A DNA stretch of 29,963 bases, from positions 1 through 29,963 of the IMG/VR virus record IMGVR_UViG_3300021602_000018. The stretch is one strand, 5' to 3'. Positions 2,180 to 23,083 of this stretch are shown here, piece after piece. The notes under the pieces were generated by a model, which saw only the letters and a list, made by a program, of their open reading frames with translations, was not told where the DNA came from and made no database searches. Numbering within the stretch: the first letter of the stretch is position 1; each line of letters starts with the position of its first letter. The stretch comes from a virus. The translations under genes were made by a program, and so were the position numbers.

Positions 2180-2587
2180 ATGGAAGCATCAGACAACCCA
2201 CTAATTAGTAAAAAAACAGGTAAACCAATAGTAAGTAATGTTCGTCGCAAGGTTATTGATAAGCATTATGATTGGGGCCTTTACGTTTACAAAAAGTCTA
2301 ATGGCAAATGGTTTACTGATGACAATGGTTCTATTCTAAATATCCCTTCAATGAAAGGCGATATTGGTCAAATTTCTAAATTAAAGCAAGCAGCAATATA
2401 CAATGGAGATCCAGGGGATGGCAAAGCAATCTTTGTTCCAGGTCTCACTAGAGTCACAGAAGAAGAGTATTCAGAACAAATGGAAAGATTAAAACAAGGA
2501 TTGATTCCTTCAATGAATGACCTTGGTGCATGGAAAGCAGCACAAGACACAGTTGACAAATATGGTAGGGGAGTTTTAGATGAGTGA
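2180..2587 (+). CDS. Hypothetical protein preceding the portal
   Basis: A 135-residue soluble, charged protein with no signal peptide or membrane segment. I do not recognise the family. Visible features are a basic N-terminal part (SKKTGKP, NVRRKVIDKHYDWGLYV), a Gly/Asp-rich centre (NGDPGDGKAIFVPG) and an acidic helical C-terminal half (TEEEYSEQMERLKQG). Its stop overlaps the portal start by 8 bases (ATGAGTGA), so the two are probably translationally coupled, which suggests a packaging or portal-associated role; that is inference from position. The ATG start has no Shine-Dalgarno but lies 8 bases after a putative extended -10 element. Compact coding with a canonical overlap makes it very likely a real gene; the function is unknown. 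Confidence 0.8.
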   Translation: MEASDNPLISKKTGKPIVSNVRRKVIDKHYDWGLYVYKKSNGKWFTDDNGSILNIPSMKGDIGQISKLKQAAIYNGDPGDGKAIFVPGLTRVTEEEYSEQMERLKQGLIPSMNDLGAWKAAQDTVDKYGRGVLDE

Positions 2588-4223
2588 TGAACTAGAATAT
2601 CAGTATGTGAGTGCTGCATTAAACACACAAGAACAAGAAGAAAGTATATTTAAGAAAAATGATCCATTTAATCAAGACTGGACATTGCTAAAAGATTTAG
2701 CAGGAATTGAACAAAACTTTAAAAGACGAACAGCCAGAAATATTGGAAAGGCTGTTGATACATATAGTTCAGCAGTAATGACAAGAAGTCAGCAACCAAC
2801 AACTGCATATCTTGCATCAGCCAATTCTGATCAAACAGGACAAGATGGAACTGGTTCAAAAACAATTAATCCTGGAACAGTATATAGAAATGGTTACGGA
2901 CTATTTGATGTAATCACTCCACCATATAACCTGTATGAACTTGCAAATTTTTATGATACTTCATTTGCTAATCATGCTGCTATAGATGCTAAGGTAGAAA
3001 ATGTAGTTGGACTTGGATATCACTTTGAAATGAATGCCCAGACAATGATGAAACTTTCCTCTGCAACAGATGATGCAGCAGTAGAAAGAGCAAGAAATAG
3101 AATCGAAAGACTTAAAATTGATTCTAGAGAATGGATTGAAGGTCTAAATTCTGACGATAGTTTTACAACTATTATGGAAAAAATTTATACAGATGTTCAG
3201 GCAACTGGCAATGGATATCTTGAAGTTGGTCGTAAAGTAAATGGAGAGATTGGTTATATTGGTCATGTTCCATCAACAACTATGCGTGTGCGTAGATTGC
3301 GTGATGGCTTTGTACAAATCATTGGTCCAAGACTTGTTTACTTCCGTAATTTTGGGGCTAAGAATCAAAATCCATTAACAGATGATAATCGTCCCAATGA
3401 GATAATTCACTTTAAAGAATACTCTCCATTAAACACATACTATGGTGTTCCAGATATCATTGCAGCACTTCCTTCTCTTATTGGAGATCAATTAGCATCA
3501 CAATACAATATTGATTATTTTGAAAATAAGGCTGTTCCAAGATATATTATTACTTTAAAGGGTGCAAAACTTTCTGCAGATGCAGAAGATAAGATGTTTA
3601 GATTCTTACAGACTGGTCTTAAATCTCAATCACATAGAACCTTGTATATCCCACTTCCTGGTGATACAGATACAACAAAAGTTGAATTCAAGATGGAGCC
3701 AATTGAAAATGGAATTCAAGATGGTTCATTTAAAGAGTACCGCAAGCAAAATCGTGATGATATTTTAATTGCTCATCAGGTTCCTATTTCAAAACTTGGT
3801 GGAGCAGATTCTGGAATTGCAGCAGCACTATCACAAGATAGAACATTCAAAGAGCAGGTCGCACGACCAGAACAAGAAAAAATTGAAAAAATTCTTTCTA
3901 AGATTTTTAAAGAATTTACAGACATAATTGAACTTAAGTTTAATGAATTAACACTTACAGACGAAATAGCACAATCACAAATTCTTGAAAGATATGTTAA
4001 GAATCAGATTATGCTTCCAAATGAGGCTCGTGAAATTCTTGATTTGCCACAAGCACCGCACGGAAACGATCCATTACAGTTGACTGCTCGTGCAGCAGCA
4101 GATGCAAGTGCTAATAGTGATAAGAATAGGGCAAGAGATGGGGAGAGGGCAAACAACTCTTCAGATAGTCCTGCAACTGTCGCTGGAAGAAATCCAAAAG
4201 GTGAAGGACGATCATCTCAATAA
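2580..4223 (+). CDS. Phage portal protein (PBSX/HK97-like)
   Basis: The 547-residue protein is the expected size for a portal, the dodecameric ring at the capsid vertex through which DNA enters and leaves and to which the connector binds. Typical portal features are visible: the central clip/stem region with YYGVPDIIAALPSLIGDQ and NIDYFENKAVPRYIITLKGA at about residues 286-330, the preceding motif NEIIHFKEYSPLNTYYG, and a helical crown-like C-terminal part with QVPISKLGG and FKEFTDIIELKFNEL. The last roughly 45 residues are Ala/Ser/Asn/Arg-rich and look disordered. It starts at the ATG overlapping the preceding stop and is followed by the prohead protease gene, the usual order. I would place it in the PBSX-type portal family by motif pattern. 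Confidence 0.93.
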   Translation: MSDELEYQYVSAALNTQEQEESIFKKNDPFNQDWTLLKDLAGIEQNFKRRTARNIGKAVDTYSSAVMTRSQQPTTAYLASANSDQTGQDGTGSKTINPGTVYRNGYGLFDVITPPYNLYELANFYDTSFANHAAIDAKVENVVGLGYHFEMNAQTMMKLSSATDDAAVERARNRIERLKIDSREWIEGLNSDDSFTTIMEKIYTDVQATGNGYLEVGRKVNGEIGYIGHVPSTTMRVRRLRDGFVQIIGPRLVYFRNFGAKNQNPLTDDNRPNEIIHFKEYSPLNTYYGVPDIIAALPSLIGDQLASQYNIDYFENKAVPRYIITLKGAKLSADAEDKMFRFLQTGLKSQSHRTLYIPLPGDTDTTKVEFKMEPIENGIQDGSFKEYRKQNRDDILIAHQVPISKLGGADSGIAAALSQDRTFKEQVARPEQEKIEKILSKIFKEFTDIIELKFNELTLTDEIAQSQILERYVKNQIMLPNEAREILDLPQAPHGNDPLQLTARAAADASANSDKNRARDGERANNSSDSPATVAGRNPKGEGRSSQ

Positions 4224-4245: not shown

Positions 4246-4254
4246 TGGTATAAT
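4246..4254 (+). promoter_or_regulatory. Putative extended -10 promoter before the protease-scaffold gene
   Basis: A perfect TG-G-TATAAT extended -10 element (hexamer 4249-4254) lies in the 40-base gap between portal and protease. A weak TTGATA lies 19 bases further upstream. The predicted start near 4261 leaves a 3-base leader before ATG 4264. A GGAG at 4256-4259 would serve only on read-through mRNA from upstream. Confidence 0.5.
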
Positions 4255-4263
4255 AGGAGTGAT

Positions 4264-5598
4264 ATGAACATAAATAAAGCACATTGGTCAACCGATGGTA
4301 CAAATGTTCGTCTCTCAATGCCATTTGCAAAAGTGGACGAAGAGCGTAGAATTGTATCTGGTTTTGCTACTCTAGACAACCTAGATAAGCAAGATGACAT
4401 TGTTACACAAGAAGCAAGTGTTGCAGCATTTGAAAAGTTCAAGGGCAACATTAGAGAAATGCATCAGCCACTAGCAGTAGGCAAACTAATGTCATTTAAG
4501 CAGGATCGTTATTTTGATCCAAACACAAAGAAGTTTTATAATGGTGTATATGTATCTGCATATATTTCAAAGGGTGCACAAGATACTTGGGAAAAGGTTC
4601 TTGATGGAACTCTATCAAGTTTTTCTATTGGTGGAAACATTCACAAGTGGGATGATGCTATTGACCAAAATACTCAAAAAGCAATACGTATCATTAAAGA
4701 CTATGACCTATTTGAATTATCTTTAGTAGACTCTCCAGCAAACCAACTGGCAAATATTTTATCAGTACAAAAAAATGCTGATGGACAAACAACTGTAACA
4801 GGTTCTTCATCTGAAGTTGTTTTAGAAAATGTATTTTGGGATTCAGAGAATGGAATTGTTTCATTGTCAGAAGAAGAATCTGCGACTAGTCCAGTAGATG
4901 GAAGTCCAATGAAAAATATAGGTTTCGTTGAAAAAAGTGATAACGAAAAAACAGAAATGATAAAGTTCTTAGTTGATAGTGCTAAAGGCATTAAGACAAT
5001 TAAGATGACAAAGGAGGTTAGTCCTATGACAGAAAATACAGACGTTTCAGTTGAGGATGTAAAGGTTGAAACAACAGTTGTTCCAATCGGATCAGAATCA
5101 GAAACACTAAATAGTTCAGAGGTCGCTCCAGAGACACAACCAGAAGAAGAGACACCAACACTTGATGCTTCATTGGCACAGTCTGAAGAAACTATTGGGG
5201 AACCAGTAGCAAATGATTCAGAAGCAGATGAACCACAAGATATTGTTGATGTTAAAAAGTCAGATACCGCTATCGCCGATGCAGTTTCAGACATGAAAAC
5301 TTCTCTTACAAATGCCTTTGGCGATTTAGCAGCAACCATTAAATCTATTAATGACCAGGTTGCTGAGTTGAGCAAGTCCCTTTCGTCAGTAACTTCTGAT
5401 GTTGCTAATGTAACAAAAGAAGTTCAAGACGTTAAGGAAAACTTTAACGAGTTTGGAAAGCGAGTAGATGCAGTAGAAACTGACACTGCTTTCCGCAAGT
5501 CTGGCGATCTTGGCGAGATCGTGCAGTTTGAACCTGTAAGGGTTCAGAAATCCCTATGGGGCGGTCGTTTCCTCAAAAATACCGACCTATTTAACTAA
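4264..5598 (+). CDS. Prohead protease (XkdF/S78-like) fused to scaffold
   Basis: 444 residues. Residues 1-170 look like a herpesvirus-type prohead serine protease: substrate-side beta strands, His67 in EMHQP, Ser121 in the SFSIGG motif (equivalent to the SIG motif of HK97-type proteases), and the family-typical SLVDSPANQLA at about 153-163. Residues 175-254 form an acidic linker. From about 255 the protein is acidic and low-complexity, then a likely coiled coil (about 335-415, with DVANVTKEVQDVKENF), ending in a compact basic/aromatic tail (SLWGGRFLKNTDLFN), as expected of a scaffold. Protease-scaffold fusions cleave the scaffold and the capsid arm after assembly. An in-frame start with strong Shine-Dalgarno at codon 255 implies a separate scaffold product. 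It is followed 25 bases later by the capsid gene. Confidence 0.88.
   Translation: MNINKAHWSTDGTNVRLSMPFAKVDEERRIVSGFATLDNLDKQDDIVTQEASVAAFEKFKGNIREMHQPLAVGKLMSFKQDRYFDPNTKKFYNGVYVSAYISKGAQDTWEKVLDGTLSSFSIGGNIHKWDDAIDQNTQKAIRIIKDYDLFELSLVDSPANQLANILSVQKNADGQTTVTGSSSEVVLENVFWDSENGIVSLSEEESATSPVDGSPMKNIGFVEKSDNEKTEMIKFLVDSAKGIKTIKMTKEVSPMTENTDVSVEDVKVETTVVPIGSESETLNSSEVAPETQPEEETPTLDASLAQSEETIGEPVANDSEADEPQDIVDVKKSDTAIADAVSDMKTSLTNAFGDLAATIKSINDQVAELSKSLSSVTSDVANVTKEVQDVKENFNEFGKRVDAVETDTAFRKSGDLGEIVQFEPVRVQKSLWGGRFLKNTDLFN
5011..5017 (+). promoter_or_regulatory. Strong internal Shine-Dalgarno for nested scaffold
   Basis: AAGGAGG lies 8 bases before an in-frame ATG at 5026 inside the protease-scaffold gene. 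It is a near-perfect anti-16S match at ideal spacing, at the boundary between linker and scaffold region. Confidence 0.7.
5026..5598 (+). CDS. Nested in-frame scaffolding protein (internal start)
   Basis: Translation from ATG 5026, exactly 254 codons into the protease frame, would give a 190-residue protease-free scaffold beginning MTENTDVSVEDVKVE. The evidence is the AAGGAGG at ideal spacing, the position at the domain boundary, and the less AT-rich codons in the 3' half of the gene, like those of the capsid gene, which fits higher expression. The model is established for lambda, where the scaffold Nu3 is the in-frame C-terminal part of protease C. The product would be acidic, with a central coiled coil and a conserved-looking C-terminal capsid-binding tail. 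It would be needed in hundreds of copies per head against few proteases. Not proven by sequence alone. Confidence 0.65.
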   Translation: MTENTDVSVEDVKVETTVVPIGSESETLNSSEVAPETQPEEETPTLDASLAQSEETIGEPVANDSEADEPQDIVDVKKSDTAIADAVSDMKTSLTNAFGDLAATIKSINDQVAELSKSLSSVTSDVANVTKEVQDVKENFNEFGKRVDAVETDTAFRKSGDLGEIVQFEPVRVQKSLWGGRFLKNTDLFN

Positions 5599-5623: not shown

Positions 5624-6754
5624 ATGTCGGAACAAAATAATACAGAGATCGTAAAGAACTATCCATCATCAGATGCACCAGCAGGTGCACTTAACGGTGA
5701 AGGTTCATTTGCATCTGGAACAACAGTTGGAGACGCAACCCCAAACGGGTATGGCGTTCTTAGCAACATTCCAGTTGCGAACCTAGGTTCAACAAGCGGT
5801 CCTAACGCAGTAAACCCAACTGGTGTCGCAGGAGGAATCTTGCTACCAGAGCAGGCTCGTCGTTTCATTGACTACGTGTGGGATGCAACAGTTCTCGCCC
5901 AAGACGGTCGTAAGGTTACTATGAGAGCCAACACCATCGAACTTGAGAAGGTTAATGTTGGTGAGCGTGTTATTCGTGCTGCTGCTCAAGCATCATACGA
6001 TTACACAAACACAGGTGCAACTTTTACAAAGGTTGAATTGACTACAAAGAAAATTCGTCTGGACTGGGAAGTTTCAACTGAGTCTCTAGAAGACAATATT
6101 GAGGGAGGTGCTCTTGAAGACCATATCGTTCGTTTGATGACAAATGCATTTGCAAATGACATCGAAGATCTCGCTATTAATGGCGATGGTTCAACAGGAG
6201 ATTTCCTATCTATTATGAACGGTTTCGTAAGCCGTACAACAGCAGGTGGATCAGGTGCACATGAATCAATCGTAGAGGTTGTAGACAATAAGTGGACAAC
6301 TGATGTTATGCAAAATATTATCTTGGCAATGCCACGCAAGTATCGTGCTCTCAAGCAAAACTTGAAGTTCTATGCTGGTACAGATGCATTCCAGGGAATT
6401 ATCAAGCACAACGGTACACTTGCTGATGCAATTGCAGAAGCCTTTGCTGGTACTCCAGCAGGTACACCTGCAAACCGTCAAGCATACCTTGATGGATCAG
6501 CACAGACATTCGGTGGTGCTCGCACTACTCGTGTTCTGGGTGTAGATGTTCAAGAAGTTCCATACTACCCTGCAGGATATGTCGATTTGACATTCCCACA
6601 GAACCGTGTATGGGGATTCCAAAGAGACATCACTGTTAATCGTGAATACAAGCCAAAGAAGGATACAATTGAGTATACAGTCTTTGTTCGCTTTGGTATT
6701 CAGTGGGAAGAACTTGATGCAGTTGCTTATGCAGATGCTGCAGAAGATCTATAA
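5624..6754 (+). CDS. Major capsid protein (HK97 fold)
   Basis: 376 residues from ATG 5624, normal for an HK97-fold capsid subunit. Residues 1-70 form a Gly/Asn/Ser/Pro-rich flexible N-arm, including LNGEGSFASG (23-32) and TSGPNAVNPTG (57-67). The fold appears to start at GGILLPEQARRFIDYVWD (about 70), followed by strands resembling the E-loop (TKKIRLDWEVS), the long spine helix (DHIVRLMTNAFANDIEDLAI), and a C-terminal domain closing with NREYKPKKDTIEYTVFVRFG. Codons are richer in C and G than in neighbouring genes, consistent with high expression. It follows the protease-scaffold gene and is followed by an intrinsic terminator. The N-arm is the probable protease or scaffold contact. A shorter relative of the arm is encoded just downstream at 6826-7065. 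Confidence 0.93.
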   Translation: MSEQNNTEIVKNYPSSDAPAGALNGEGSFASGTTVGDATPNGYGVLSNIPVANLGSTSGPNAVNPTGVAGGILLPEQARRFIDYVWDATVLAQDGRKVTMRANTIELEKVNVGERVIRAAAQASYDYTNTGATFTKVELTTKKIRLDWEVSTESLEDNIEGGALEDHIVRLMTNAFANDIEDLAINGDGSTGDFLSIMNGFVSRTTAGGSGAHESIVEVVDNKWTTDVMQNIILAMPRKYRALKQNLKFYAGTDAFQGIIKHNGTLADAIAEAFAGTPAGTPANRQAYLDGSAQTFGGARTTRVLGVDVQEVPYYPAGYVDLTFPQNRVWGFQRDITVNREYKPKKDTIEYTVFVRFGIQWEELDAVAYADAAEDL

Positions 6755-6777: not shown

Positions 6778-6807
6778 GGGAGTAGAGTAAAATCTACTCC
6801 CTCTTTT
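6778..6807 (+). terminator. Intrinsic terminator after the capsid gene
   Basis: A perfect 9-bp stem (GGGAGTAGA at 6778-6786, TCTACTCCC at 6793-6801) with a 6-base loop is followed by TCTTTT. It lies 23 bases past the capsid stop and would cap the protease-scaffold-capsid transcript. Confidence 0.88.
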
Positions 6808-6825: not shown

Positions 6826-7065
6826 ATGTCTTATCAAAATAATGATGGCAATCAATTAAACGGCACTGGATCTTTTGCTGTAGGTGGCGTTGGTGGAGCA
6901 ATTGTTATGGGGCCAAATGGATTAACCACTCAGATGATTTTGGGTAATTTAAATGGTGGAGCAAATATGGGAGAAACATCAGGACCAAATGCTGTAAATC
7001 CATCTGGAACACCAAATGGTATTAGGCATGCACAACAAAACAATTTTAGAAGTTCCAGAAAATAA
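6826..7065 (+). CDS. Small free paralogue of the capsid N-terminal arm
   Basis: 79 residues, Gly/Asn-rich, no membrane segment. It aligns to residues 1-72 of the capsid protein: both begin MSxQNN, then LNGTGSFAVG against LNGEGSFASG, a PNG, and the near-identical TSGPNAVNPSG (residues 51-61) against TSGPNAVNPTG. The similarity stops where the capsid HK97 fold starts; here the chain ends in a short basic tail (FRSSRK). The DNA codons differ while the amino acids are kept, which points to an old duplication under protein-level selection. It has a Shine-Dalgarno (AGGGAGA) before ATG 6826 and lies between the terminator and a putative promoter, so it would be made from read-through. The role is unknown: a minor capsid or cement peptide, or a protease/scaffold ligand, are possibilities. 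Confidence 0.8.
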   Translation: MSYQNNDGNQLNGTGSFAVGGVGGAIVMGPNGLTTQMILGNLNGGANMGETSGPNAVNPSGTPNGIRHAQQNNFRSSRK

Positions 7066-7073
7066 CTATATTC

Positions 7074-7082
7074 TGGTATAAT
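7074..7082 (+). promoter_or_regulatory. Putative extended -10 promoter for the connector gene cluster
   Basis: A second perfect TG-G-TATAAT (hexamer 7077-7082) in an intergenic gap. The predicted start near 7089 falls on the AGGAGG (7089-7094) preceding ATG 7100. It could drive 7100 through 10529. Confidence 0.5.
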
Positions 7083-7099: not shown

Positions 7100-7429
7100 A
7101 TGAAAGATTTTTTTAAATTCGAAGGTCAAGATAATGTTGATGATGTTTCAACAGATAACTATGACAATGAAGCAGCAATTGAAGAAGTAGATGTCCATGT
7201 TGAAGAAACACCAGTTTTGGAATATATTCCAGTAACTGAAAAAGTTGCATCAACCTTTACTTCAAGTTCTTCAGTAACAATTTACTCATTAAGAGATTTT
7301 GTTATCCCAGGAGTTGGTCCAATTAAAAAAGGATACAACACAGTTTCAAGTTTAGATCATGAAAAGTTAAAGCATATTAAGGCAATTCGTTTGGCTCGTC
7401 CAGATGAGATTGCAAGACGACAGAAATAA
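7100..7429 (+). CDS. Small structural-region protein, paralogue of the next gene
   Basis: 109 residues. The N-terminal half (about 1-55) is strongly acidic (DDVSTDNYDNEAAIEEVDVH) and probably disordered. The C-terminal half (about 58-109) is a compact basic/hydrophobic domain, VTIYSLRDFVIPGVGPIKKG then GYNTVSS and IKAIRLARPDEIAR. The same domain pattern (YS ... G ... K-GYN-V ... LK-KA-R-A-xEV) recurs at the C-terminus of the next gene, so the two are tandem paralogues. AGGAGG gives a clear start at ATG 7100. Position between capsid and adaptor suggests a head decoration, head fibre or connector accessory role; I do not recognise a named family. Confidence 0.8.
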   Translation: MKDFFKFEGQDNVDDVSTDNYDNEAAIEEVDVHVEETPVLEYIPVTEKVASTFTSSSSVTIYSLRDFVIPGVGPIKKGYNTVSSLDHEKLKHIKAIRLARPDEIARRQK

Positions 7430-7440
7430 GGAGATACATA

Positions 7441-7842
7441 ATGTCAGATTTATCAAATGATGCAACACCAGTTGCAGATGAAAGACAAGAAGCAATTCTT
7501 GAGGCAAAAGTATTTAATGAAGCATTGCAAGTAGAAATGGATAAGCAGCCAAAGCCTGCAAAGCCAGAACCAGTTGCAGAAGTAGATGATAGACAAGAAA
7601 ATGTTCTTCGTGCAAAAGCATTTGTTAAGCCAGTTGTACCAAAGGTTGTAGCAAAGCCAACAAAAAAGCCAAAGGCAGTTGCAAATGTCCCACTTTATTC
7701 TTCAAAGAATATACACGTAGGTGCAACATTCTTAAAATTTGGTTACAATATTGTTACTGAAGAAGCAGCAGCAAAATGGTTAAAGTTCAAGGCAGTTAGA
7801 AAAGCAACTGCAGAAGAAGTTAAAACAGCCTACGGGAAATAA
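7441..7842 (+). CDS. Small structural-region protein with internal repeat and shared C-terminal domain
   Basis: 133 residues, starting 11 bases after the preceding stop with an AAGGAGA site. The N-terminal part holds two copies of a short helical motif, DERQEAILEAKVF (about residue 13) and DDRQENVLRAKAF (about 48), separated by a Lys/Pro linker. A second Pro/Lys-rich linker (VAKPTKKPKAV) leads to a C-terminal domain of about 50 residues (VPLYSSKNIHVGATFLKFGY ... FKAVRKATAEEVKTAYG) that matches the preceding protein. The layout resembles multi-domain decoration or adaptor proteins with a docking domain and variable N-terminal region. Function unknown; the paralogy is seen directly. Confidence 0.8.
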   Translation: MSDLSNDATPVADERQEAILEAKVFNEALQVEMDKQPKPAKPEPVAEVDDRQENVLRAKAFVKPVVPKVVAKPTKKPKAVANVPLYSSKNIHVGATFLKFGYNIVTEEAAAKWLKFKAVRKATAEEVKTAYGK

Positions 7843-12043: not shown

Positions 12044-12052
12044 TGATATAAT
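12044..12052 (+). promoter_or_regulatory. Putative extended -10 promoter for short chaperone and tape measure
   Basis: A perfect TG-A-TATAAT (hexamer 12047-12052). The predicted start near 12059 gives a leader of about 19 bases carrying a strong AAGGAGGG (12067-12074) before ATG 12078. Confidence 0.5.
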
Positions 12053-12077: not shown

Positions 12078-12386
12078 ATGACAACAACAATTCATCAAGA
12101 ATCAGAAGTTACTCTGATTGATGGCACAATAATCAAGGTCAGACCATTGAAGATCTCTTTGCTTCGACCATTCATGAAATCATTTGAAAAGATTCAGGAC
12201 GTAGCAGAAGATAACGATAAGTCAATGACTCTACTTCTTGAGTGCGTACAGATTGCAATGCAACAGTATGCTCCAGAATTAGCAAAGGATGCAACAGCAC
12301 TTGAAGATCTAATTGATCTTCCAACAGTTTATGCAATTGTTGAAGCAGCATCTGGAACAAGACTTGCCGATACAGCAATGCTTTAA
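12078..12386 (+). CDS. Tail assembly chaperone, short G-like form
   Basis: 102 residues, starting after a strong AAGGAGGG. It parallels the N-terminal domain of the preceding protein: IDGTIIKVRPLKISLLRPFM against VDDTEIEIHPLKIKYLREFM, CVQIAMQQYAPELAK against CARICMKQYYPNFSN, and LIDLPTVYAIVEAASG against NFDMATIYQILDYSVG. Codons are richer in G and C. I find no slippery heptamer in the right frame at its 3' end; the -1 frame after the stop ends within about eight codons. It is the G-like chaperone made as a separate gene, probably in excess over the long form. The tape measure gene follows 38 bases later. Confidence 0.8.
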   Translation: MTTTIHQESEVTLIDGTIIKVRPLKISLLRPFMKSFEKIQDVAEDNDKSMTLLLECVQIAMQQYAPELAKDATALEDLIDLPTVYAIVEAASGTRLADTAML

Positions 12387-12424: not shown

Positions 12425-15400
12425 GTGAGAGATGTAAATGCTAATATAGTCGTAAATGTTAATACGTCTGAAGCATTAGCACAACTCAAGGCTTTACAGC
12501 GTGAAATAGCAACTCTCCATTCATCTATATCAAAATCTAGTGCTGCCTCAGTTGCAGCACAAAAGAATTTACAGACAAATCTTTTAAATTCTATTAATGC
12601 AACTGGACAGTTTAGTGCCCAGATGGGCGTTATAAGAACTTCTACGGAGTCGTTTACTCACGCATTAGAAAATAATAAACTCTCAATGCGTGAGTATTTC
12701 CGTTATGCGGGAGCATCTACCAAATCTTTTGGTCGTTTATTTAAATCAGAATTTGACACAATAGGAAAAGTTGCAGAAGATCGTGTAAGAAAACTTCAGA
12801 CACAATATATTAGTATGGGCCGTGATGCCAAGGGCGCAATGCAGGCAGTGTCAATCACACCAAATACATTAAATCTTAAAGATTTTTCAACTCAGGCAAT
12901 GATTGCTGCCCAGAAGCAAGCACTATTTGGACAATTATTAAAACAAGGTTCAACAAATATGTTAAACTTTGGTAAAAATACACAATGGGCTGGTCGCCAA
13001 CTTATGGTTGGTTTTACAGTTCCTCTTGTTTATTTTATGTCTGCTGCATCTAAAGCATTTATTGATCTTGAAAAAGAAGCGGTTAAGTTTAAGCGTGTTT
13101 ATGGTGATATGTTTACGACTACTGCAGATGTTACAAAAGCATTACAAGATGTACAAAATATTGCTAATGGTTTTGTAAAGTATGGTGTGGCAGCAAAAGA
13201 TACCATGGCAATTGCTGCTGACATTGCAGCAATGGGAAAAACTGGAGTTGACCTAACTAATCAATTAACTCAGGCAGTAAAACTATCCGTATTAGGAAAC
13301 ATTGATCAACAACAGGCACTTCAAACAACTATCTCAATTCAAAATGCTTTTGGCATTTCTACAGACCAATTAGCATCAAAGATTGACTTTTTAAATGCTG
13401 TTGAAAACCAGACAGTATTAAATATTGAAGACTTGACTGTGGCTATTCCAAAGGTTGCACCAGTAATTAAACAACTTGGTGGAACCGTAGAAGATGCTGC
13501 CTTCTTTATGACAGCAATGAAAGAGGGTGGAATTGAAGCAGCACAAGGTGCCAACGCACTTAAGTCTGCAATGGGTTCTATTATTAATCCAACTAAGTCT
13601 GCATCGGAATTCCTTGCTGGATTTGGCGTTAATATAAAAGGTATTGTAGATGCAAATGCAGGAAACCTTCGTGCAACGATTACAGGAGTTGCTCAGGCAC
13701 TTGATACTTTAGATCCACTTAATCGTTCTCGTGCTATTGAAATGATGTTTGGTAAATTTCAATTTGCACGTATTTCAACACTATTTAAAAATATCACAAA
13801 AGATGGTTCACAGGCAAATAAAGTATTAGAATTAACTCAAAATTCAGTTGAAGAACTTGCAATTTTATCTCAGCGAGAAATGAAAACTGTTCAAGATGCA
13901 GTAGGAACAAACTTTAAAGCATCAATTGAAAAATTAAAAATAACTATTGCACCAATTGGAAAAACATTTTTACAAGCAATTACTCCATTAGCAAAAGCAC
14001 TTGGAGATATTTTTGAAAAATTTAATAATTTAAGTGATGGTACAAAAAAGTTTATTGTTACTGTGGTTTCTCTAGGAGGAATTTTAGGACCATTAGCACT
14101 AATGACATTTGGTTTAGTCGCTAACGGTGCAGCAAACATAATTAAATTATTCCTAATTATGAGAAATGGTTTTCTTAGACTTGGCGGGGAATCTAGAAAT
14201 TTAGGACAACAACTAACATACTTTAATGAAGAACAACTTCAAGGAGTAACAGTCGCAGCATCTCTAAACCAAGCACACACACAATTAACACAAAAATTTG
14301 AACTTGAATCAGTAGCCGTAAATTCATTAAGAACTGCATATATTGCTGCTGCTGCTGCAGCAAGAGGGTTTGCCATTGCAAATCCAGGAATGATGACTAG
14401 TAAAGTTCCTGGTAAATTTGCAGTTGGGACAACAAGTGTGCCAGGACCAGCAGGCGCAGGAGATATTATTCCATCACTGTTATCCCCTGGAGAAGCAGTT
14501 ATTCCAGCGAAAGTTGCACAAGATCCAACGAATAAACCATTAATTTCAGCATTAGTAAATGGAACAGTTAAAAAATATTCAATTGGAACTGCAAATGCTG
14601 GAGAGCAATATTCACATGTTGGTGGATCTAAAATGCAGCCAATTGATACTTTGCTTGCATTGCCAAATATTAGCGAACTAGACAAAGCAAAATTAACTGT
14701 TTATAAAGACTTTTTATCTGCTAATGGATATAGCACAGAAGTTAGCACAAGACATAATCTTGCATTTTCTTTCCCAGGCGAATTAAATAGAGCACTGGCT
14801 GGATCAGGAATTTCTTTTGAAGAATTTCAAAAGGCTTGGACAAATGGTGGTGCAGGTAAATGGATTTCTTCAAACATACCAGCATCAGAAGCCAAATTAA
14901 TAGATGATGAAATTTTAAAAAAAATTCAATCAGGTAAGCATACTGCTATAACTGATAAGATTGTTGAGCAAGCATTTTTAGATCTTCCTGCTAAAATAAA
15001 AGCAATACCAACATATCAAACCATGAGTCAACTTTATTCAACTCTTGGAGAATATACTATAAGCAGAGGACTACCTTCTACTCCTAAAGGAATAATTGAA
15101 AAACTTAACATGGCAGGCAAAGATGGCATTGCTGCAGAAAGACTTGGAAAATATCCTGTTGTTGAAATTAATAATGCTACAGTTTTAACAGAAGGACCAG
15201 GTAAAGGGTTAACAATAAAGCAGGCAATGAGGGCTGGTAAGTGGAGACCTCCAAATTATCAGCATACAATTATTACAAGAGGTGACAGACTTGATCAAAA
15301 TAGTGGAATATATATTGCAGATAGTGATGGAATTCCACGCTCTGTTGGTCGAGGCGGAGATGGACAAAGAAATCCAATAGGGCAACGACCAAAACCACTA

Positions 15401-18400
15401 AAAATTCCAAAAATATCTAATCCAGTTATTGGAGCAGACCCAATTCCTGTTGGAGAATTTGAGTATACAAGTCAATCACTTTCTAGACCTGGTGGTTATA
15501 GTTATAAGGAAGCAAATCATTTAAGTGGAGTTTATGAAACATCAGATGGAAGAAAAGTTTTTGCAAAACCTGTAAGAGATTTATTGTCTGCTAGAGCAGA
15601 ACAAAGGGCTACACAAATTGCAAGAGATGTACATGGACTTAAAGCACCAACACAAACATTAAGATCTATGCTAGATCCAAAAACAGGAAAGCCAGTATTA
15701 TTTTTGGAATCACCATATGATGCAAACTTTGTAGAAATGAATGGCAAATTTACAAAGGGTCAATACTTTAAACAACTTGTTGCATTAGCACTTCGTGGCG
15801 ATATAGATCTTCAAAAATCAAATCTTTCTGGAGACAAAGTTGCAGATGTAGGTGCTGCTGGAGTATTTGATCGTGCTTCAGGAGAGAGAGAACTTTCTAA
15901 AGATATGCGGTCTATGAAAGATACTGCAAGGATTGCTCTTATGGGGGCAAAAGCAAAAGGAGCAAATTATGATTTTGCTAAATCAACTATGGACATACCA
16001 TTTAGTAAAGGTATGGATAGAGATAAATATCATGCATTAATTATTAATGAAATAGAAAAAACTCTTCCAAAACTTAAAAAGACTGTGGCAAATTTTGAAA
16101 ATCTCAGTCCACAAGAATTGACAGCAAATCAAAATATGATCAAAAGACTTGAGGCTGGTCTAAATGAAAACTGGAGAGAAATCTATGATACCCATGTACA
16201 GGTACGTCCAAAAGAAGACCTTAAGGAATTAGATAAGTCTTTGAGATCAAAGAGTAAAACACCAACAGCAAGGGGAGAAGTTGTTGCGGTTAACCTTAAA
16301 GAATTTATAAAGCATATAGATAAAAATGGAAAGATTTCTTATGAAGCAATAACAGGACAAAATGCAGAACTTTTGCCAAAAAGCATTAAGAGTACTCAAG
16401 GCGCTGCAGACACTCATGCAGTATTTTTGCCAAAGGGTTCAGAAATTGTTAAGTTAAAGGGTGGTGCTTCCAAAAAGGTAAACCCTATAAGAATTCCTGG
16501 ACATGCAGATGCTCCTACATTTTCTAATCCAGATCTATCAAATCCTGGGTCTGGGGCACAACAAAATTATAATCGTGCATTGACTTCTGGAGCAACTGCA
16601 ATAGAAGGACAAACTCAGCAAACAATTAAAACAGCAAAAGCAACATCACAATTTGGAAATAAAATGATGGGTGGAGTTAGTTTTGCTTCTGGATTAGTCT
16701 TTGCTATGTCATTTTTACATGGTAAAGTTGGAGAGTTTGCACAAAAAATTGTACCAATTGCAATTATTCTTCCACTAGTTTTACAAGCAATGACAATGAT
16801 GAAAGGCACACTACTTAAATCAAGTGCAGAGTTAGCAACACTTAGTGGTCCAGCAAAATGGATGGCAATGGCAAAAGGTCCAATGCTACTTGCAGTAGTT
16901 GCAATAACTGCCTTTACACTTGCAATAAAATCAATAAATGACGCTGCAAATAAAGCAAGAGAAGCCGTTTTAAATGTAGCAAAAAATACTGGAACAACAA
17001 GTGATAGTCTTGAAAAACTTGGTATTTTTGCAAATAAAGCATCTGCTGCAGAACAATTAAGATATAGACAAGAACAAAATAAAAAACCATTAGGTATAGC
17101 AGCAGGTAAAACATCTTATGGAGAAGCATTTGTTAAAACGCAAAACAATGCAGAATTTATTGCTTCTATCAAAGAAAACTTATCTACTAATGGTGTAACA
17201 AAAACTATTCAAGACCTACAAAGACAACTATCAACAGCAGTTGTTTCTGGAGTTCTTAATCAACAACAGGCAAAAAGCATTGCACTTGAAATGGGAACAG
17301 CATTAGGAAATCAGTCAATAGGAATTAACGTATCTGCAAAGTTAGATGAATTATTTGGACCTAATGGTGAAAATCTTTTAGATCCTAATGCTTCTATAAA
17401 TCTTAAAGTTAAATTACTTCAAGAAGCCAATTCACAAATTAAAAAACCAGGAGACTTAAAGTTAGGTCCAGTAGGAAAAATAGACTCTAAACTAGGATTG
17501 TTAGGAAGTATTGCTGCAGGAGCAACTGGTGGCTATGCAACAGGTTCAGTAGTTGGTGGTATTGGTGGCATGGTAACAGGTGGTCCGCTTGGAGCACTTG
17601 CTGGAGTAATGGCTGGCGGACCTATCGGAGGACTTATCGGTGCAATCTCTGGTGGCGTAATGGGAATGAAAGCCATGGCTTCACAAGGTAAACTAGTAGC
17701 AGCATGGTCTGCAGCAAATGTTGCATCACAGACTCAAGCACTTACAATTGCAAATGAAATGGAAGCATCTCTTCAACTTCAATATGAAAAAGAAATGGCA
17801 ACTGCTAAGTTGGCTGGAGATACAGCAAAACAAAGAAAATTAACAAAACAATATACACAAGATTTACTTGCCCTAGAAGAACAAAGAAATAAAATAGGAA
17901 AATCTGTTCTTAGATCTTATGATCAAGCACAAGGAAATACAGAAAGACAAATGCTTAAATCTGCAAAATCTGCAGCAGAAGCAAAAAATAAAGAAAATCC
18001 ACAATATGCTCTTGCCCAAGAACTGCTAAAGAGTACAAGTGGAAGAAGAGAATATGCTTTAACTGTTTCAATGGCATCTGGAGATTTAACACCAGAGCAA
18101 GTTGTACAAATTATGCAAACCTTTGGTAAAAATAAAAAAGACTTAAATGCTTTTGTAAATCTTTTGCCTAAAATAGGTGGCGCAGGACAAAGCAAGGCTG
18201 CAGATATTTTATCAGCATTTGTTAGTAAAGACGGAACAATAAATGAAAAGGCTCAGTCAGAATTTATTATTCAATTAACTAATACAAAAAATTCTAAAGA
18301 AGCAAACGACCTAATGAATTTTTATGATGTGCTTAGTAAAAATGCTGGAGTATTAGATGTTGGTGTAATAGTAAATTATTACTTAAATAATCCAGAAGCA

Positions 18401-21400
18401 AAAAAGACACTAGATGGAATATTAAAGAAAATAGATAAAAATGATGGCAAACTAAATATTGATGTTGCTACAAAAATACTTCCAGTTGAATATATGAACG
18501 CAGTAGACAAAGCATATTTTAATTCATTAGCACAAAATGAGAAAAAAGTTTATTTACAAGAAATTGCTCAAATTATGTCAATAGATGTTCAAACACTATT
18601 AAATGAAAATGATGATTTTGGAAAATGGGGAGTATCAAAGGGGTACCTAGTAAAAGGTAAGGGTGGACTAAAGGTAGCACCTAACGCTCCACTGCTATCA
18701 ACAATTAAAGAAGAATATGCAGATGCAATTGGACAAAAAGGTACTAATGCAAATAAGTCTTCTGCGGTCAAGTCTTCAACAGATGGAAGTACTTCATCTA
18801 GTGGTGTAACTAAAACAGATCCATATGCATTCTTACAAGGTGCAATAGATAGTGTAAGAAAGTTTAAAAACTTATCAATTGATGCAATAACGCCACTAAA
18901 TGCATTAAAACAAGTTATGTCAGGCAAAATAAAATTAGATGCATTTAATGGTCTTGCAGAAAAACTTGCAGCAGTAAAGAAGGTTGGCATTAAGGGTGGG
19001 GCTGGAATGTCAGAAGGATTCATGGATGCCCTTCTTGGACTTGATAAAGCAACATTTGATAAACTTAATAAAAAAATATATACTATTAAAAATGGAATCA
19101 TTACTTTAACAGCACAAGGTAAGGCAGCAAATAAATTATTCGATGCTCAAGCATTAGGTGAATCTGCTGGAGCATTACAAAAACTTGCAAGAGAAACAAA
19201 TGAACAATCAAAAGCATATCGTATGCTTATTGCAAGTGGTCTTGATAGTGCTACAGCAATGAAGATTTCTAGTGATGCAGCATTAGCATCACAGATTGCA
19301 AATAAGCGTTTAACCCTTACAAGTAAAGAATGGAAACAATATGCTGCATCAATCAAGGCAGCAAAGGCAGCAGAAAAAGAAGCATCAGTAACAAACTTAA
19401 TGGATAGATTAAGACAAGAAGTTAATGCAACAAATGATAAAAAAACTGCAACTGATAAATTAACTGCAGCAGGAATTAGTTTGGCAAGAGCCGAAGAAGT
19501 AGCATCAGACCAGGCTGCTGCTTTTGCTATAGCCAATGGAAAGATAAAGCCTGAAGATTGGCCAGTTTTGTTAGATTTAATTAAAAAAACTGGCAGTGCT
19601 ATTGGTGGTGCTACAAATGCTCTTGATGAATTTTTAAATAAAATGCATGCAGACACAAAGTTAAAAATGGACTTTGCTCCTACTCTTTTGCAATTAAAAG
19701 AAATGGGTGCTGATTCACAACTTATTCAAGATATACTCGGAAATCCTGAATTGATGCAAAGTATCCTTGATGGATTAGCAAAAGCATCAAATAAGGGTGA
19801 GTTTTTAAAACAAGTACTTGATGAAGCAACTAGAAATAGAACAGTTAATATTGATATTAATATGATTGCTGATCCAAAGACTGAAATTAATAATCAGATA
19901 AATGATTTAACATCTGCAATAGATTCTCAAATTTCAGTAATTGATGCACAGATAACAGTAGTTCATGATCAATTTGATCCATTAATTGCTGGAGCACAAG
20001 CATCAGTAGATGCAGCACAAGCATCAATAGATGCAATTAACGCAATGTACGATACACAAATTAATGCTATTCAATCTACGATTGATGCACAACAACATGC
20101 TATTGCTCAAATGTTTGATGCTCCTATCGCAGCATTCCAGAATGACATCGCTGCATTACAAAAGCAGATGGCAGACACTATTGATAAGCCAGTTCAAGCA
20201 CTTAATGATAAAATTTCTGCTATACAACATCAGATTGATATTCAGTTTACAAGACCTTTGGCTGCATTATCAGATGAGTCAAACATCCTTTCTAACAATT
20301 TAACAATTTTAAATCATCAAGAGCAAGCAATTAATGATAAATATGATAAGCAAATTGCTGCACTTGAAGAAGTCAATAAAATTAATCAAGATATATCTAA
20401 TCAAAAGAAATCACAACTGTCTATTGCAGATGCATTAAGTAAGGGTGATATTTCAGCAGCAGCCAAGGCTATTGAGGACATGAGGGCACAAGAGGCTGCC
20501 TCAGCAGGTCAATCAGCAGTAGATGCGATGAACGCAGCACGTAAGGGTGAATTAGGTGGCTTAACTGTCAACGGTATGACAAAAGTACAAATAGAACAGC
20601 GTCAGTATGAAATTCAACAGCAACAGTTTAAATTACAACAACAGCAAGCAGTACTTGATAAAGAAATTCAGGGTTATCAGGATCAAATTTACCAGATTGA
20701 ACTTGGACGAAAGGCTATTCAAGATCAAATTACGGCTATTGAAGAAAAAATTGCTGTACTTGAAGAACAGAAAAAGGCTGCCCTTGCAGTTATTGCTCAA
20801 GAAGAAGAACAAATTTATCAATTCAAACAACAACAAACTGCAGAACTTAATGCTGCAAATGCAGAATTAAAGAAAAAACAAGATGCTTTGGTTGCAATTC
20901 AAAAACAAATGGAAGATCAATTAAAACCACTTGAAGATCAAAAAACAAAGTGGGAAGAAATTAAGCATAAGTTAGAATTGCAACAAGCAGAATTAGATAA
21001 AATTCCAACGACATTAGAAGAAGCAAAAACAAAGGCTGGAGACCTTGCGACTAAGATTGCTAATATTGGTACAGCAGCAAAAAATGCAGCAGCAGAAATT
21101 GCAGCAATGGTGGCAGCAATAGGTGCAGCACAAGCAGCACAAGCAGCAGCAGCAGCAGCCCTGGCAGCATCACAAAATACTGGCAATGGTCCAGATGCAT
21201 TATACGATCAAAAATTAGCAGCAGATGCAGCAGCAGCACTCAATAAACTTACAAGTGGTCAAACATTAACTGCAGCAGAATATGCTTTACTTGGAATGAC
21301 ACCCCCAACTTCTGGTCCTTCTGTATCATTAGGTGTTGGTGGAGATCAAGGAAATCCACTTGTTGGAACAAGATTAGTTCCAGGAACAGGTATTTATAAT

Positions 21401-23083
21401 GGTAATGTTTTTGTTCCTCCACAATATTATGCAAGTGGTGGAGAAGTTGCGGGAATGTTTAAGAAAAAGGGTACTGATACAGTTCCAGCCATGCTAACTC
21501 CTGGTGAATATGTTATTAATAGACATTCAACAAAGAAATTTAGACCAATGCTTGATAAAATAAATAAGGGTAAGCACCCTCACGGCGAACACGAGGGTCG
21601 TGGAGATGGTGGTAAGCCAGGGGATAATGGTAAGCCAGGAACTGGAACTAGCACTAGAACTGGTTCAACAAGAGGTGGAGAAGCCAGAAGTTACGATCCT
21701 GGATTCAAAGGTACAACTGGAGACCTAAATGCTCCATCATTTGCTAACGGTACAGTCGGCGATGGAATGACATCAAACAATGGCAATAATTCAAATGCTA
21801 CAGGATATCAAAATGGAACAGGCGGAAACACAGGAACTAGTGGTTCTGGCGGAGGAGCACAATCATCTGCACAACAAGCATCTGCTCAAAAAGACTTATT
21901 AGCAATTGAAAAACAAATTGAAACTGTTTTAAAAGCAATTGCTGTTTTAGAAGAGCAGATTACAAATGCCATGAGCATGCAACTTCAAATTGAACAACAA
22001 GTTCAAGCAATTTATACAAAACTTCCACAACTTGCAATACAACTTATTGCACAACTTAAACTTGAAAAAGATTTTGCTACATCAATTTTAGAATTATTGA
22101 ATAAAGAATATAAAGTATTTGAGCAAATCCTTACAGATGAAATATTAATAAATGCACAGAATAATATACACAAAGAATTCTTATTGTATGCCTTAGATAA
22201 GGTGACTGGATATCCTAAGATATTCTCTTGGCTTGATCAAATGTGGTTAAAGATAAAGAATAATATTAATCCTGAACTTTTATTTTCAATAGAAAACTTT
22301 AAACAATTAATTATTAAAAATGAAATACTTTATAAAGCAATTGCTAAGGAATTGATTGATGCAATAGACAAAGCAAACACTGCTTTACAAAAAGTTCTTG
22401 GAACAATGTCAGGAATTGCTGCTAAAGCACAAGCAGCACTTGCTGCTATTATGGCATTAAATACCACCGTAGTTACAACTCATATTATTAATACTATTTA
22501 TACAACTTCGGGCACTCCGCCAGGAGTAGCAACTGGTGGATCTGTGACCAACGCCAGTAATAATGGTGGCGGTATTCCAAAACTTTTCTCGTCTACTGGC
22601 GGAATTGTTCCTAAGTATTTATCAGTTGGTGGGAACTCAAGCACATTCCAACCAGTAGGAACAGATACTATCCCAGCAATGCTTACGCCTGGCGAATTTG
22701 TTATTAATGCAAATGCAACTAAAAATAACATTGATCTATTACAAAGAATAAATTCTGGTTCCACTATCGATACTGCCTCAATAAATAATTTTAAAAGATC
22801 TGCAAAAATGCCAACATTTACAAAGCCAACCTCAAAAGTTCAAAGTCTATCTGCACCAAGATACTCTAGTTCAAATCTTCCAAGACAAGCATCTTCAGAA
22901 ATGAATACTGCAGTAGCAAAAACTCCAACATCAATATCTGACAACTCGGCAGTGTATAATTATAGTGTAAATGTAAATGTAAATGGAACAGAAGCAGGAA
23001 ATCCAAATGACATTGCAAATGCAGTAATGAGAAAAATTAGAGAAGTTGAATCACAACAAATTAGAAAGCAGGTTTCTAGATAA
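12425..23083 (+). CDS. Tape measure protein, giant, with embedded soluble domains
   Basis: 3552 residues from GTG 12425 (AAGGG 12413-12417 upstream). The tape measure sets tail length and fills the tube. In order: helical N-terminus (NANIVVNVNTSEALAQLKAL); TP901-type core (about 160-600: LMVGFTVPLVYFMSAASKAF, FFMTAMKEGGIEAAQGANAL); hydrophobic stretch about 540-580; SPGE-type motif at 679-693; soluble insertions about 720-1280, including a kinase-like part at about 1022-1260; hydrophobic segments about 1413-1458 and 1486-1502; glycine zipper about 1692-1750; helical repeats; Gln/Ala-rich coiled coil about 2495-2917; TPGE motifs at 3016 and 3412 flanking a Gly-rich linker; conserved-looking C-terminus (YSVNVNVNGTEAGNPND). 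At about 1.5 A per residue this implies a tail near 0.5 micrometre, less if the insertions fold. No peptidoglycan hydrolase motif was recognised. Confidence 0.97.
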   Translation: MRDVNANIVVNVNTSEALAQLKALQREIATLHSSISKSSAASVAAQKNLQTNLLNSINATGQFSAQMGVIRTSTESFTHALENNKLSMREYFRYAGASTKSFGRLFKSEFDTIGKVAEDRVRKLQTQYISMGRDAKGAMQAVSITPNTLNLKDFSTQAMIAAQKQALFGQLLKQGSTNMLNFGKNTQWAGRQLMVGFTVPLVYFMSAASKAFIDLEKEAVKFKRVYGDMFTTTADVTKALQDVQNIANGFVKYGVAAKDTMAIAADIAAMGKTGVDLTNQLTQAVKLSVLGNIDQQQALQTTISIQNAFGISTDQLASKIDFLNAVENQTVLNIEDLTVAIPKVAPVIKQLGGTVEDAAFFMTAMKEGGIEAAQGANALKSAMGSIINPTKSASEFLAGFGVNIKGIVDANAGNLRATITGVAQALDTLDPLNRSRAIEMMFGKFQFARISTLFKNITKDGSQANKVLELTQNSVEELAILSQREMKTVQDAVGTNFKASIEKLKITIAPIGKTFLQAITPLAKALGDIFEKFNNLSDGTKKFIVTVVSLGGILGPLALMTFGLVANGAANIIKLFLIMRNGFLRLGGESRNLGQQLTYFNEEQLQGVTVAASLNQAHTQLTQKFELESVAVNSLRTAYIAAAAAARGFAIANPGMMTSKVPGKFAVGTTSVPGPAGAGDIIPSLLSPGEAVIPAKVAQDPTNKPLISALVNGTVKKYSIGTANAGEQYSHVGGSKMQPIDTLLALPNISELDKAKLTVYKDFLSANGYSTEVSTRHNLAFSFPGELNRALAGSGISFEEFQKAWTNGGAGKWISSNIPASEAKLIDDEILKKIQSGKHTAITDKIVEQAFLDLPAKIKAIPTYQTMSQLYSTLGEYTISRGLPSTPKGIIEKLNMAGKDGIAAERLGKYPVVEINNATVLTEGPGKGLTIKQAMRAGKWRPPNYQHTIITRGDRLDQNSGIYIADSDGIPRSVGRGGDGQRNPIGQRPKPLKIPKISNPVIGADPIPVGEFEYTSQSLSRPGGYSYKEANHLSGVYETSDGRKVFAKPVRDLLSARAEQRATQIARDVHGLKAPTQTLRSMLDPKTGKPVLFLESPYDANFVEMNGKFTKGQYFKQLVALALRGDIDLQKSNLSGDKVADVGAAGVFDRASGERELSKDMRSMKDTARIALMGAKAKGANYDFAKSTMDIPFSKGMDRDKYHALIINEIEKTLPKLKKTVANFENLSPQELTANQNMIKRLEAGLNENWREIYDTHVQVRPKEDLKELDKSLRSKSKTPTARGEVVAVNLKEFIKHIDKNGKISYEAITGQNAELLPKSIKSTQGAADTHAVFLPKGSEIVKLKGGASKKVNPIRIPGHADAPTFSNPDLSNPGSGAQQNYNRALTSGATAIEGQTQQTIKTAKATSQFGNKMMGGVSFASGLVFAMSFLHGKVGEFAQKIVPIAIILPLVLQAMTMMKGTLLKSSAELATLSGPAKWMAMAKGPMLLAVVAITAFTLAIKSINDAANKAREAVLNVAKNTGTTSDSLEKLGIFANKASAAEQLRYRQEQNKKPLGIAAGKTSYGEAFVKTQNNAEFIASIKENLSTNGVTKTIQDLQRQLSTAVVSGVLNQQQAKSIALEMGTALGNQSIGINVSAKLDELFGPNGENLLDPNASINLKVKLLQEANSQIKKPGDLKLGPVGKIDSKLGLLGSIAAGATGGYATGSVVGGIGGMVTGGPLGALAGVMAGGPIGGLIGAISGGVMGMKAMASQGKLVAAWSAANVASQTQALTIANEMEASLQLQYEKEMATAKLAGDTAKQRKLTKQYTQDLLALEEQRNKIGKSVLRSYDQAQGNTERQMLKSAKSAAEAKNKENPQYALAQELLKSTSGRREYALTVSMASGDLTPEQVVQIMQTFGKNKKDLNAFVNLLPKIGGAGQSKAADILSAFVSKDGTINEKAQSEFIIQLTNTKNSKEANDLMNFYDVLSKNAGVLDVGVIVNYYLNNPEAKKTLDGILKKIDKNDGKLNIDVATKILPVEYMNAVDKAYFNSLAQNEKKVYLQEIAQIMSIDVQTLLNENDDFGKWGVSKGYLVKGKGGLKVAPNAPLLSTIKEEYADAIGQKGTNANKSSAVKSSTDGSTSSSGVTKTDPYAFLQGAIDSVRKFKNLSIDAITPLNALKQVMSGKIKLDAFNGLAEKLAAVKKVGIKGGAGMSEGFMDALLGLDKATFDKLNKKIYTIKNGIITLTAQGKAANKLFDAQALGESAGALQKLARETNEQSKAYRMLIASGLDSATAMKISSDAALASQIANKRLTLTSKEWKQYAASIKAAKAAEKEASVTNLMDRLRQEVNATNDKKTATDKLTAAGISLARAEEVASDQAAAFAIANGKIKPEDWPVLLDLIKKTGSAIGGATNALDEFLNKMHADTKLKMDFAPTLLQLKEMGADSQLIQDILGNPELMQSILDGLAKASNKGEFLKQVLDEATRNRTVNIDINMIADPKTEINNQINDLTSAIDSQISVIDAQITVVHDQFDPLIAGAQASVDAAQASIDAINAMYDTQINAIQSTIDAQQHAIAQMFDAPIAAFQNDIAALQKQMADTIDKPVQALNDKISAIQHQIDIQFTRPLAALSDESNILSNNLTILNHQEQAINDKYDKQIAALEEVNKINQDISNQKKSQLSIADALSKGDISAAAKAIEDMRAQEAASAGQSAVDAMNAARKGELGGLTVNGMTKVQIEQRQYEIQQQQFKLQQQQAVLDKEIQGYQDQIYQIELGRKAIQDQITAIEEKIAVLEEQKKAALAVIAQEEEQIYQFKQQQTAELNAANAELKKKQDALVAIQKQMEDQLKPLEDQKTKWEEIKHKLELQQAELDKIPTTLEEAKTKAGDLATKIANIGTAAKNAAAEIAAMVAAIGAAQAAQAAAAAALAASQNTGNGPDALYDQKLAADAAAALNKLTSGQTLTAAEYALLGMTPPTSGPSVSLGVGGDQGNPLVGTRLVPGTGIYNGNVFVPPQYYASGGEVAGMFKKKGTDTVPAMLTPGEYVINRHSTKKFRPMLDKINKGKHPHGEHEGRGDGGKPGDNGKPGTGTSTRTGSTRGGEARSYDPGFKGTTGDLNAPSFANGTVGDGMTSNNGNNSNATGYQNGTGGNTGTSGSGGGAQSSAQQASAQKDLLAIEKQIETVLKAIAVLEEQITNAMSMQLQIEQQVQAIYTKLPQLAIQLIAQLKLEKDFATSILELLNKEYKVFEQILTDEILINAQNNIHKEFLLYALDKVTGYPKIFSWLDQMWLKIKNNINPELLFSIENFKQLIIKNEILYKAIAKELIDAIDKANTALQKVLGTMSGIAAKAQAALAAIMALNTTVVTTHIINTIYTTSGTPPGVATGGSVTNASNNGGGIPKLFSSTGGIVPKYLSVGGNSSTFQPVGTDTIPAMLTPGEFVINANATKNNIDLLQRINSGSTIDTASINNFKRSAKMPTFTKPTSKVQSLSAPRYSSSNLPRQASSEMNTAVAKTPTSISDNSAVYNYSVNVNVNGTEAGNPNDIANAVMRKIREVESQQIRKQVSR
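14459..14503 (+). repeat. Tape-measure SPGE/TPGE motif, copy 1
   Basis: Encodes GDIIPSLLSPGEAVI (residues 679-693), similar to two C-terminal copies beginning at residues 3016 and 3412. This copy marks the boundary between the tape-measure core and the soluble insertions. Confidence 0.7.
15488..16205 (+). other. Kinase-like domain embedded in the tape measure
   Basis: Residues about 1022-1260. Two beta strands (SGVYETSDGRKVFAKP) put Lys1048 where the ATP-binding lysine of kinase-fold N-lobes lies, and Glu1059 in RAEQRATQIARD follows as a helix-C glutamate. After a hinge-like FLESPYD, a loop GDIDLQKSNLSGDKVADVG places Asp1128 and Asn1133 with the DxxxxN spacing of kinase catalytic loops, and Asp1141-Val-Gly where the metal-binding DFG would be, though the gap is short (8 residues). 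HipA-like/actin-fragmin-type kinase folds are known in other phage virion proteins. The fold is inferred from motif spacing; activity is unknown. Confidence 0.5.
17500..17672 (+). other. Glycine-zipper hydrophobic segment in the tape measure
   Basis: Residues about 1692-1750 are almost entirely Gly, Ala, Val, Ile and Met with repeated GxxxG spacing (GGIGGMVTGGPLGALAGVMA). Such segments insert into or across membranes and fit a role in DNA delivery through the host membrane. Confidence 0.7.
19909..21177 (+). other. Coiled-coil region of the tape measure ending in GCA-rich DNA
   Basis: Residues about 2495-2917 show continuous heptad-like Ile/Leu/Ala spacing with Gln/Asp/Glu/Lys at other positions, including a Gln-rich run (YEIQQQQFKLQQQQAVLD). 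It ends in an Ala-rich stretch encoded by imperfect GCA repeats (about 21071-21171). Confidence 0.7.
21470..21526 (+). repeat. Tape-measure TPGE motif, copy 2
   Basis: Encodes GTDTVPAMLTPGEYVINRH (residues 3016-3034), nearly the same as copy 3; a Gly/Asn/Ser-rich linker of about 100 residues follows. Confidence 0.8.
22658..22711 (+). repeat. Tape-measure TPGE motif, copy 3
   Basis: Encodes GTDTIPAMLTPGEFVINA (from residue 3412). The codons differ from copy 2, so the copies are old or selected at protein level. Confidence 0.8.

Follow-up and report, generated by a model that had tools for sequence, protein, structure and literature searches.

We analyzed a 29,963-base virus record over its full length (IMG/VR record IMGVR_UViG_3300021602_000018, positions 1 to 29,963; herein the window). 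Its head genes are arranged in the order portal, S78 prohead protease with a coiled coil, major capsid protein (MCP), a 79-residue open reading frame (ORF), two small proteins, and presumed connector genes. An earlier note on this DNA had described the ORF just after the capsid gene as a separately encoded copy of the N-terminal arm of the capsid protein; the ORF is indeed found there, at 6826-7065 on the + strand with 79 residues, and its product is herein called the free arm. The features of the locus are listed below.

2580-4223: portal gene
4246-4254, + strand: extended -10 box, TGGTATAAT, ahead of the protease gene; located by pattern search, a candidate promoter
4264-5598, + strand: prohead protease (S78) with a C-terminal coiled coil; Pfam Peptidase_S78 1.4e-6, PHROG 9427 2.7e-117
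5624-6754, + strand: MCP, 376 aa, ATG start, ribosome-binding site aggaggtgaaatat upstream; matches the major head protein family PHROG 10 (3.5e-7) and PHROG 1623 (1.4e-72, residues 69-371)
5657-5854, + strand: arm module of the MCP, residues ~12-77, common to the free arm; absent from the MCPs of phages LukeCage and Francesca
6778-6801, + strand: GC-rich, terminator-like hairpin in the gap between the MCP gene and the free arm; conserved, with compensated pairs
6826-7065, + strand: free-standing arm gene, 79 aa, ATG start, MSY...TSGPNAVNPSGTPNGI...RSSRK; the MCP stop is at 6754
7074-7082, + strand: extended -10 box, TGGTATAAT, immediately downstream of the free arm; candidate start of the next unit

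The Streptomyces phage LukeCage (Stanwilliamsviridae) and the Rhodococcus phage Francesca resemble the window in the order portal-protease-MCP-small protein-connectors and in an MCP core that is up to 45% identical; unlike the window, both have MCPs without the arm module and no free arm behind them. Homology of the LukeCage MCP with this group starts at residue 70, with just ~20 residues ahead of it (MSDELIEKVIRTTEVASGGGGLLNAEQ), and the Francesca MCP is similar to that of LukeCage. The fold boundary is placed at MCP residue ~70, where both PHROG 1623 (residue 69) and the similarity to LukeCage (residue 70) begin. Because the LukeCage and Francesca MCPs lack it, the arm can be defined as an additional module that lies between residue ~11 and the fold.

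Several neighboring genes have features of their own. The coiled coil fused to the protease is a candidate scaffold and probably has this role as well. The protease C terminus (5540-5598) reads LWGGRFLKNTDLF and that of the LukeCage protease KWGGHFLSVSDI; the C-terminal motif conserved between the two may bind the MCP. The consecutive small proteins encoded at 7100-7429 and 7441-7842 have a common C-terminal domain (BLASTP E = 6e-5, 31% over 48 aa) and are a further pair of paralogues, immediately following the free arm; most relatives inspected have only one gene of this type after the arm or the MCP. Farther along is a very long ORF (12425-23083; 3552 aa), the probable gene for the tape measure protein; a long tail would follow from this.

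The free arm is a paralogue of the MCP arm

The 79-residue ORF is a true paralogue of the MCP N-terminal arm. It aligns with the MCP at 52% identity over 62 aa (BLASTP E = 5e-10), and its Smith-Waterman score against the MCP, 113, was equaled by none of 5000 shuffled arms (36.6 ± 6.2, best 72), which rules out a low-complexity Gly match as the source of the likeness. The profile-profile alignment proposed in the earlier note is likewise significant beyond low complexity: a free-arm profile (42 sequences) and an MCP-arm profile (103 sequences) align over 70 columns with a probability of 99.7 and E = 3e-25 (hhalign). The only other raised score among the genes of the window (62) comes from a Gly-rich stretch of the 3552-aa protein; as 13 of 300 shuffles reach this value by chance, the stretch was dropped as a third copy of the arm.

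The extent of the likeness differs from that first described. The homologous stretch of the MCP is residues ~12-77 (NYPSS...GILLPEQ) and not residues 1-72. A shared MSxQNN start turned out to be a coincidence in this one sequence; most other free arms start with MSYPG, which aligns in the relatives with MCP KNYPG (residues 11-15) and not with MSE. Nor does the likeness stop exactly where the capsid fold begins, as had been thought; it continues ~8 residues past the boundary and takes in the first conserved residues of the fold, GIxLPxQ.

Nearly all free arms end in a basic tail that is absent from the MCP module, the last 12 residues having a mean net charge of +4.3 (range +1 to +6). The tail is short and variable in both sequence and length, and the arm part is the most conserved portion of the protein, which is Gly-rich (18%). 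Eight free arms (L010, L013, L032, L055, L056, L066, L073, and L080) lack the GPNAVNP part that their own MCP arms keep, so this part is dispensable in the free form. Cysteines are found in some of the same proteins, two each in L032, L056, and L073 and one in L080.

The earlier note knew of no named family with this architecture, and this agrees with our searches. With 32 members as queries, Pfam and PHROG gave no match at E ≤ 0.05, to a known decoration family or any other; the PDB gave none either. A tblastn search of 50,697 phage records (E ≤ 10) found no match, and thus no cultured phage with a free arm, and the open-access literature searched held no description of a free-standing MCP arm. 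AlphaFold (AF2) models of the MCP and the free arm were uninformative and of low confidence (mean pLDDT 38.6 and 47.2, respectively). The free-arm model has two short strands only, at a pLDDT of 47 that is no sign of disorder.

Age, distribution, and transcriptional context

The free-arm gene arose by a single old split from the MCP arm and is under purifying selection. All free arms form one clade relative to all MCP arms (SH-aLRT 99, in a quick tree built on few columns). Synonymous differences between a free arm and its own MCP arm are saturated (pS ~0.70), and at identical residues the same codon is used in a proportion of 0.445 with the own MCP and 0.465 with other MCPs; together with the one old clade, these values rule out recent duplication or gene conversion. 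Between the two copies of the window pS is ~0.80, residues being kept while codons differ, just as had been noticed. Among free arms, dN/dS is ~0.31 when taken as the median of ratios and 0.46 as the ratio of means; among MCP arms it is ~0.25. The view of the earlier note that the duplication is neither recent nor neutral is thus borne out by saturated pS, one old clade, and a dN/dS between relatives, the check it had suggested, of ~0.3-0.5, well below 1.

Specific co-evolution of the free arm with its own MCP arm is not supported. The partial correlation between the two is 0.29 (permutation P = 0.0005), and other MCP segments give 0.13-0.54. In all 41 pairs the two copies agree in having or lacking an HxH motif, which is found in one large group; this concordance amounts to one evolutionary change.

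The carriers appear to be a family of uncultured phages, mostly from freshwater, as judged from the cohort and a hint about the host rather than record by record. The host is probably a member of the Actinomycetota; the hint is weak and consists of one genome contig that carries the MCP, from a metagenome-assembled genome named Actinomycetota. The records are metagenomic and incomplete. A free arm is present in 53/116 loci whose MCPs are distinct and whose downstream sequence is 600 nt or longer, a proportion inflated by the half of the loci that were fetched using the arm itself; among loci fetched by the MCP alone, it is present in 16/80. In an enlarged set, every one of 132 free arms (59 unique) sits 60-90 nt behind the MCP gene. 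No third copy was found in 20 contigs of 50-112 kb, each of which has the motif once as the MCP N terminus plus at most one free copy, nor in 15 records searched by profile.

The earlier note had proposed a survey of related phages for a short arm paralogue next to the capsid gene, and the outcome is mixed: relatives of the window carry the gene, including the 59 unique arms behind an MCP, but in the wider clade it is patchy, with seven gains or losses on the MCP-core tree. Two phages (L074 and L070) that have the same MCP arm as L073 are without a free arm, and in their gap the hairpin leads straight to the -10 box, i.e., an empty site. Its patchiness on the MCP tree and such empty sites behind an identical MCP arm mark the free-arm gene as accessory.

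One locus (L105) contains an exact 1038-bp direct repeat (1308-2345 and 2389-3426, no mismatch) that fuses the beginning of a free-arm gene, out of frame, with the middle of another MCP arm; it reflects a tandem duplication of very recent date or else an artefact of assembly.

The hairpin between the MCP and the free arm has a 10-bp consensus stem, 8 pairs of which show compensatory changes (26 sequences). A terminator search gave the same stem (6778-6801) on the - strand only, owing to the weak T tract on the + strand; because of this weak tract, the terminator activity of the hairpin is uncertain. The 8 nt after the stem contain a mean of 3.98 T in arm-bearing and 4.64 T in arm-less loci, a difference (P = 0.01) that is a hint only, as kinship is uncontrolled. 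In 60 of 61 arm-less loci TATAAT follows directly after the hairpin, whereas in arm-bearing loci it lies between hairpin and arm in 0/43 and right after the arm stop in 45/45; in the enlarged set, TGnTATAAT follows every one of the 57 unique arms for which sufficient DNA is available. The order is thus fixed as MCP stop, compensated hairpin, free arm where present, extended -10 box, and next gene. With this fixed order and no -10 box of its own, the arm appears to belong to the MCP transcription unit, behind a terminator-like hairpin.

Judged from the sequence pattern, the -10 box at 4246-4254 is likely to start the unit protease-MCP-(hairpin)-free arm, and the simplest reading is that the arm would be reached only by read-through of the hairpin. 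Ribosome-binding sites are present in the free arms inspected, and the frame is open in all 59 unique sequences. The window contains TGnTATAAT three times (4246, 7074, and 12044), a number not above chance, each copy within a short gap that precedes a + strand gene; the copy at 12044 precedes an ORF at 12078. These placements suggest a simple late promoter class.

Possible roles of the free arm

The closest working analogue of the free arm may be gp4 of the actinobacteriophages Patience and Adjutor, a capsid chasm or stabilization protein of 102 and 54 aa, respectively, that is bound among split-hexamer subunits; in Patience, free gp4 is a random coil, which becomes ordered among MCP subunits and is helical in the capsid (PMC10635136). 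Like the free arm, gp4 is a small accessory protein (54-102 aa) encoded apart from the MCP, with a length that varies among relatives. It is helical in the capsid and, unlike the free arm, has not been presented as a duplicate of part of the MCP; the searches of phage records and the PDB detected no kinship between the two. Decoration or cement proteins of HK97-fold capsids include lambda gpD, phage L Dec, and the P74-26 cement protein (PMC7602432). They resemble the free arm, a presumed capsid binder, in being encoded by a small separate gene near the MCP gene, but what the free-arm gene encodes is a stretch of the MCP. Decoration and cement proteins are folded and unrelated in sequence to the MCP arm. 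T4 gp24, a capsid paralogue of gp23 at special positions, is a whole capsid protein complete with fold. The free arm is likewise a capsid paralogue and may occupy positions that the MCP does not, but the fold is entirely missing from it.

Accessory capsid proteins are usually folded and unrelated to the MCP, and capsid paralogues are usually whole shell proteins. The age of the arm gene, the selection on it, and its invariant place suggest an accessory shell peptide of a kind not described before. That a selected, arm-only gene lies between the hairpin and the next promoter in many lake phages suggests that capsids can be tuned by trans-acting copies of their own arm.

The earlier note had listed cement, a scaffold or protease ligand, a competitor that tunes assembly, and a minor capsid peptide as possible roles. 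In our preferred reading, in which docking, location, and copy number are inferred and to which we assign a probability of about 0.5, the product is an accessory capsid peptide of minor abundance that split off from the phage's own MCP arm and would dock on the MCP lattice by arm mimicry. This reading draws on the homology, the single clade, purifying selection, the constant position with its hairpin and TATAAT pattern, the basic tail, the likeness that reaches into GIxLPxQ, and the precedent of gp4. Expressed late by read-through of the MCP transcript, it would be made in fewer copies than the MCP. The peptide would be flexible when free and would order on the inner or inter-subunit surface of the lattice, where by imitating the MCP arm (GxGAxAxG ... 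TSGPNAVNPSGTPxGI) it could fill or reinforce arm-docking sites while its basic tail reaches towards the DNA; it would tune capsid stability and not be required in every relative. Several observations count against this model: some phages have an identical MCP arm and no free arm, so the docking sites need no such filler; co-variation with the own MCP arm is no stronger than for other MCP segments, the HxH concordance being a single change; and the T tract of the hairpin is weak. A variant that we regard as doubtful would make the free arm a filler of symmetry mismatches, a trans-acting copy of the MCP arm placed in docking sites to which no MCP supplies an arm, namely a ring at the portal vertex, the position of the absent pentamer; terminator read-through would determine how much of it is made. 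Natural loci with and without the gene exist (L073 and L074, respectively), and the model makes a prediction about dose.

Other roles during assembly have also been weighed. That the free arm serves as a scaffold is less likely, given the coiled coil fused to the protease upstream and an arm that is Gly-rich and probably not helical; with that separate candidate in place, such a role is not needed. The HK97 delta domain and separate scaffolds are comparable in lying at or before the MCP N terminus and in being fused or free depending on the phage, but they are helical. The least unlikely of the remaining alternatives is that the free arm regulates assembly, competing with MCP arms for the scaffold/protease or for neighboring subunits during procapsid growth, so as to tune nucleation or the size of the shell, before it disappears or is degraded. 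Arm mimicry, the place in the protease-MCP transcription unit, and a possibly low dosage behind the hairpin would all suit such a regulator; the conserved basic tail, however, would have no obvious role, and the homologous capsids of LukeCage and Francesca, whose MCPs have no arm module, assemble without the arm. The tail would itself be the working part if the free arm were an internal DNA-associated protein, also an improbable reading, in which the arm is only a capsid-targeting tag and the tail condenses or anchors the DNA or is ejected with it. Its presence at the end of nearly all free arms, with a net charge of +1 to +6 over the last 12 residues, agrees with this, but it is the arm and not the short, changeable tail that is most conserved.

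Display of both MCP arms and free arms on the outside, for adhesion or protection and with HxH as a possible metal ligand, we consider quite unlikely. The matching HxH status of all 41 pairs would fit, but it represents one change; moreover, the Pfam and PHROG searches found no Ig-like or other fold, and in HK97-type shells the sequence ahead of the N-arm usually starts inside. There is still less reason to place the free arm outside the virion altogether, as a soluble mimic that occupies a host defense sensor of the MCP arm or has some other trans-acting role. Patchy presence alongside near-identical MCPs is what would be expected of an accessory counter-defense gene, but every free arm found is in the late MCP unit, with none at another site, and we know of no sensor of the MCP arm. 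The same patchiness could be read as the mark of a nonfunctional tandem duplicate that is decaying and has persisted by chance; this is hardly credible, being largely refuted by purifying selection (dN/dS ~0.3-0.5), by the one old clade, and by 59 unique open frames with ribosome-binding sites wherever these were inspected.
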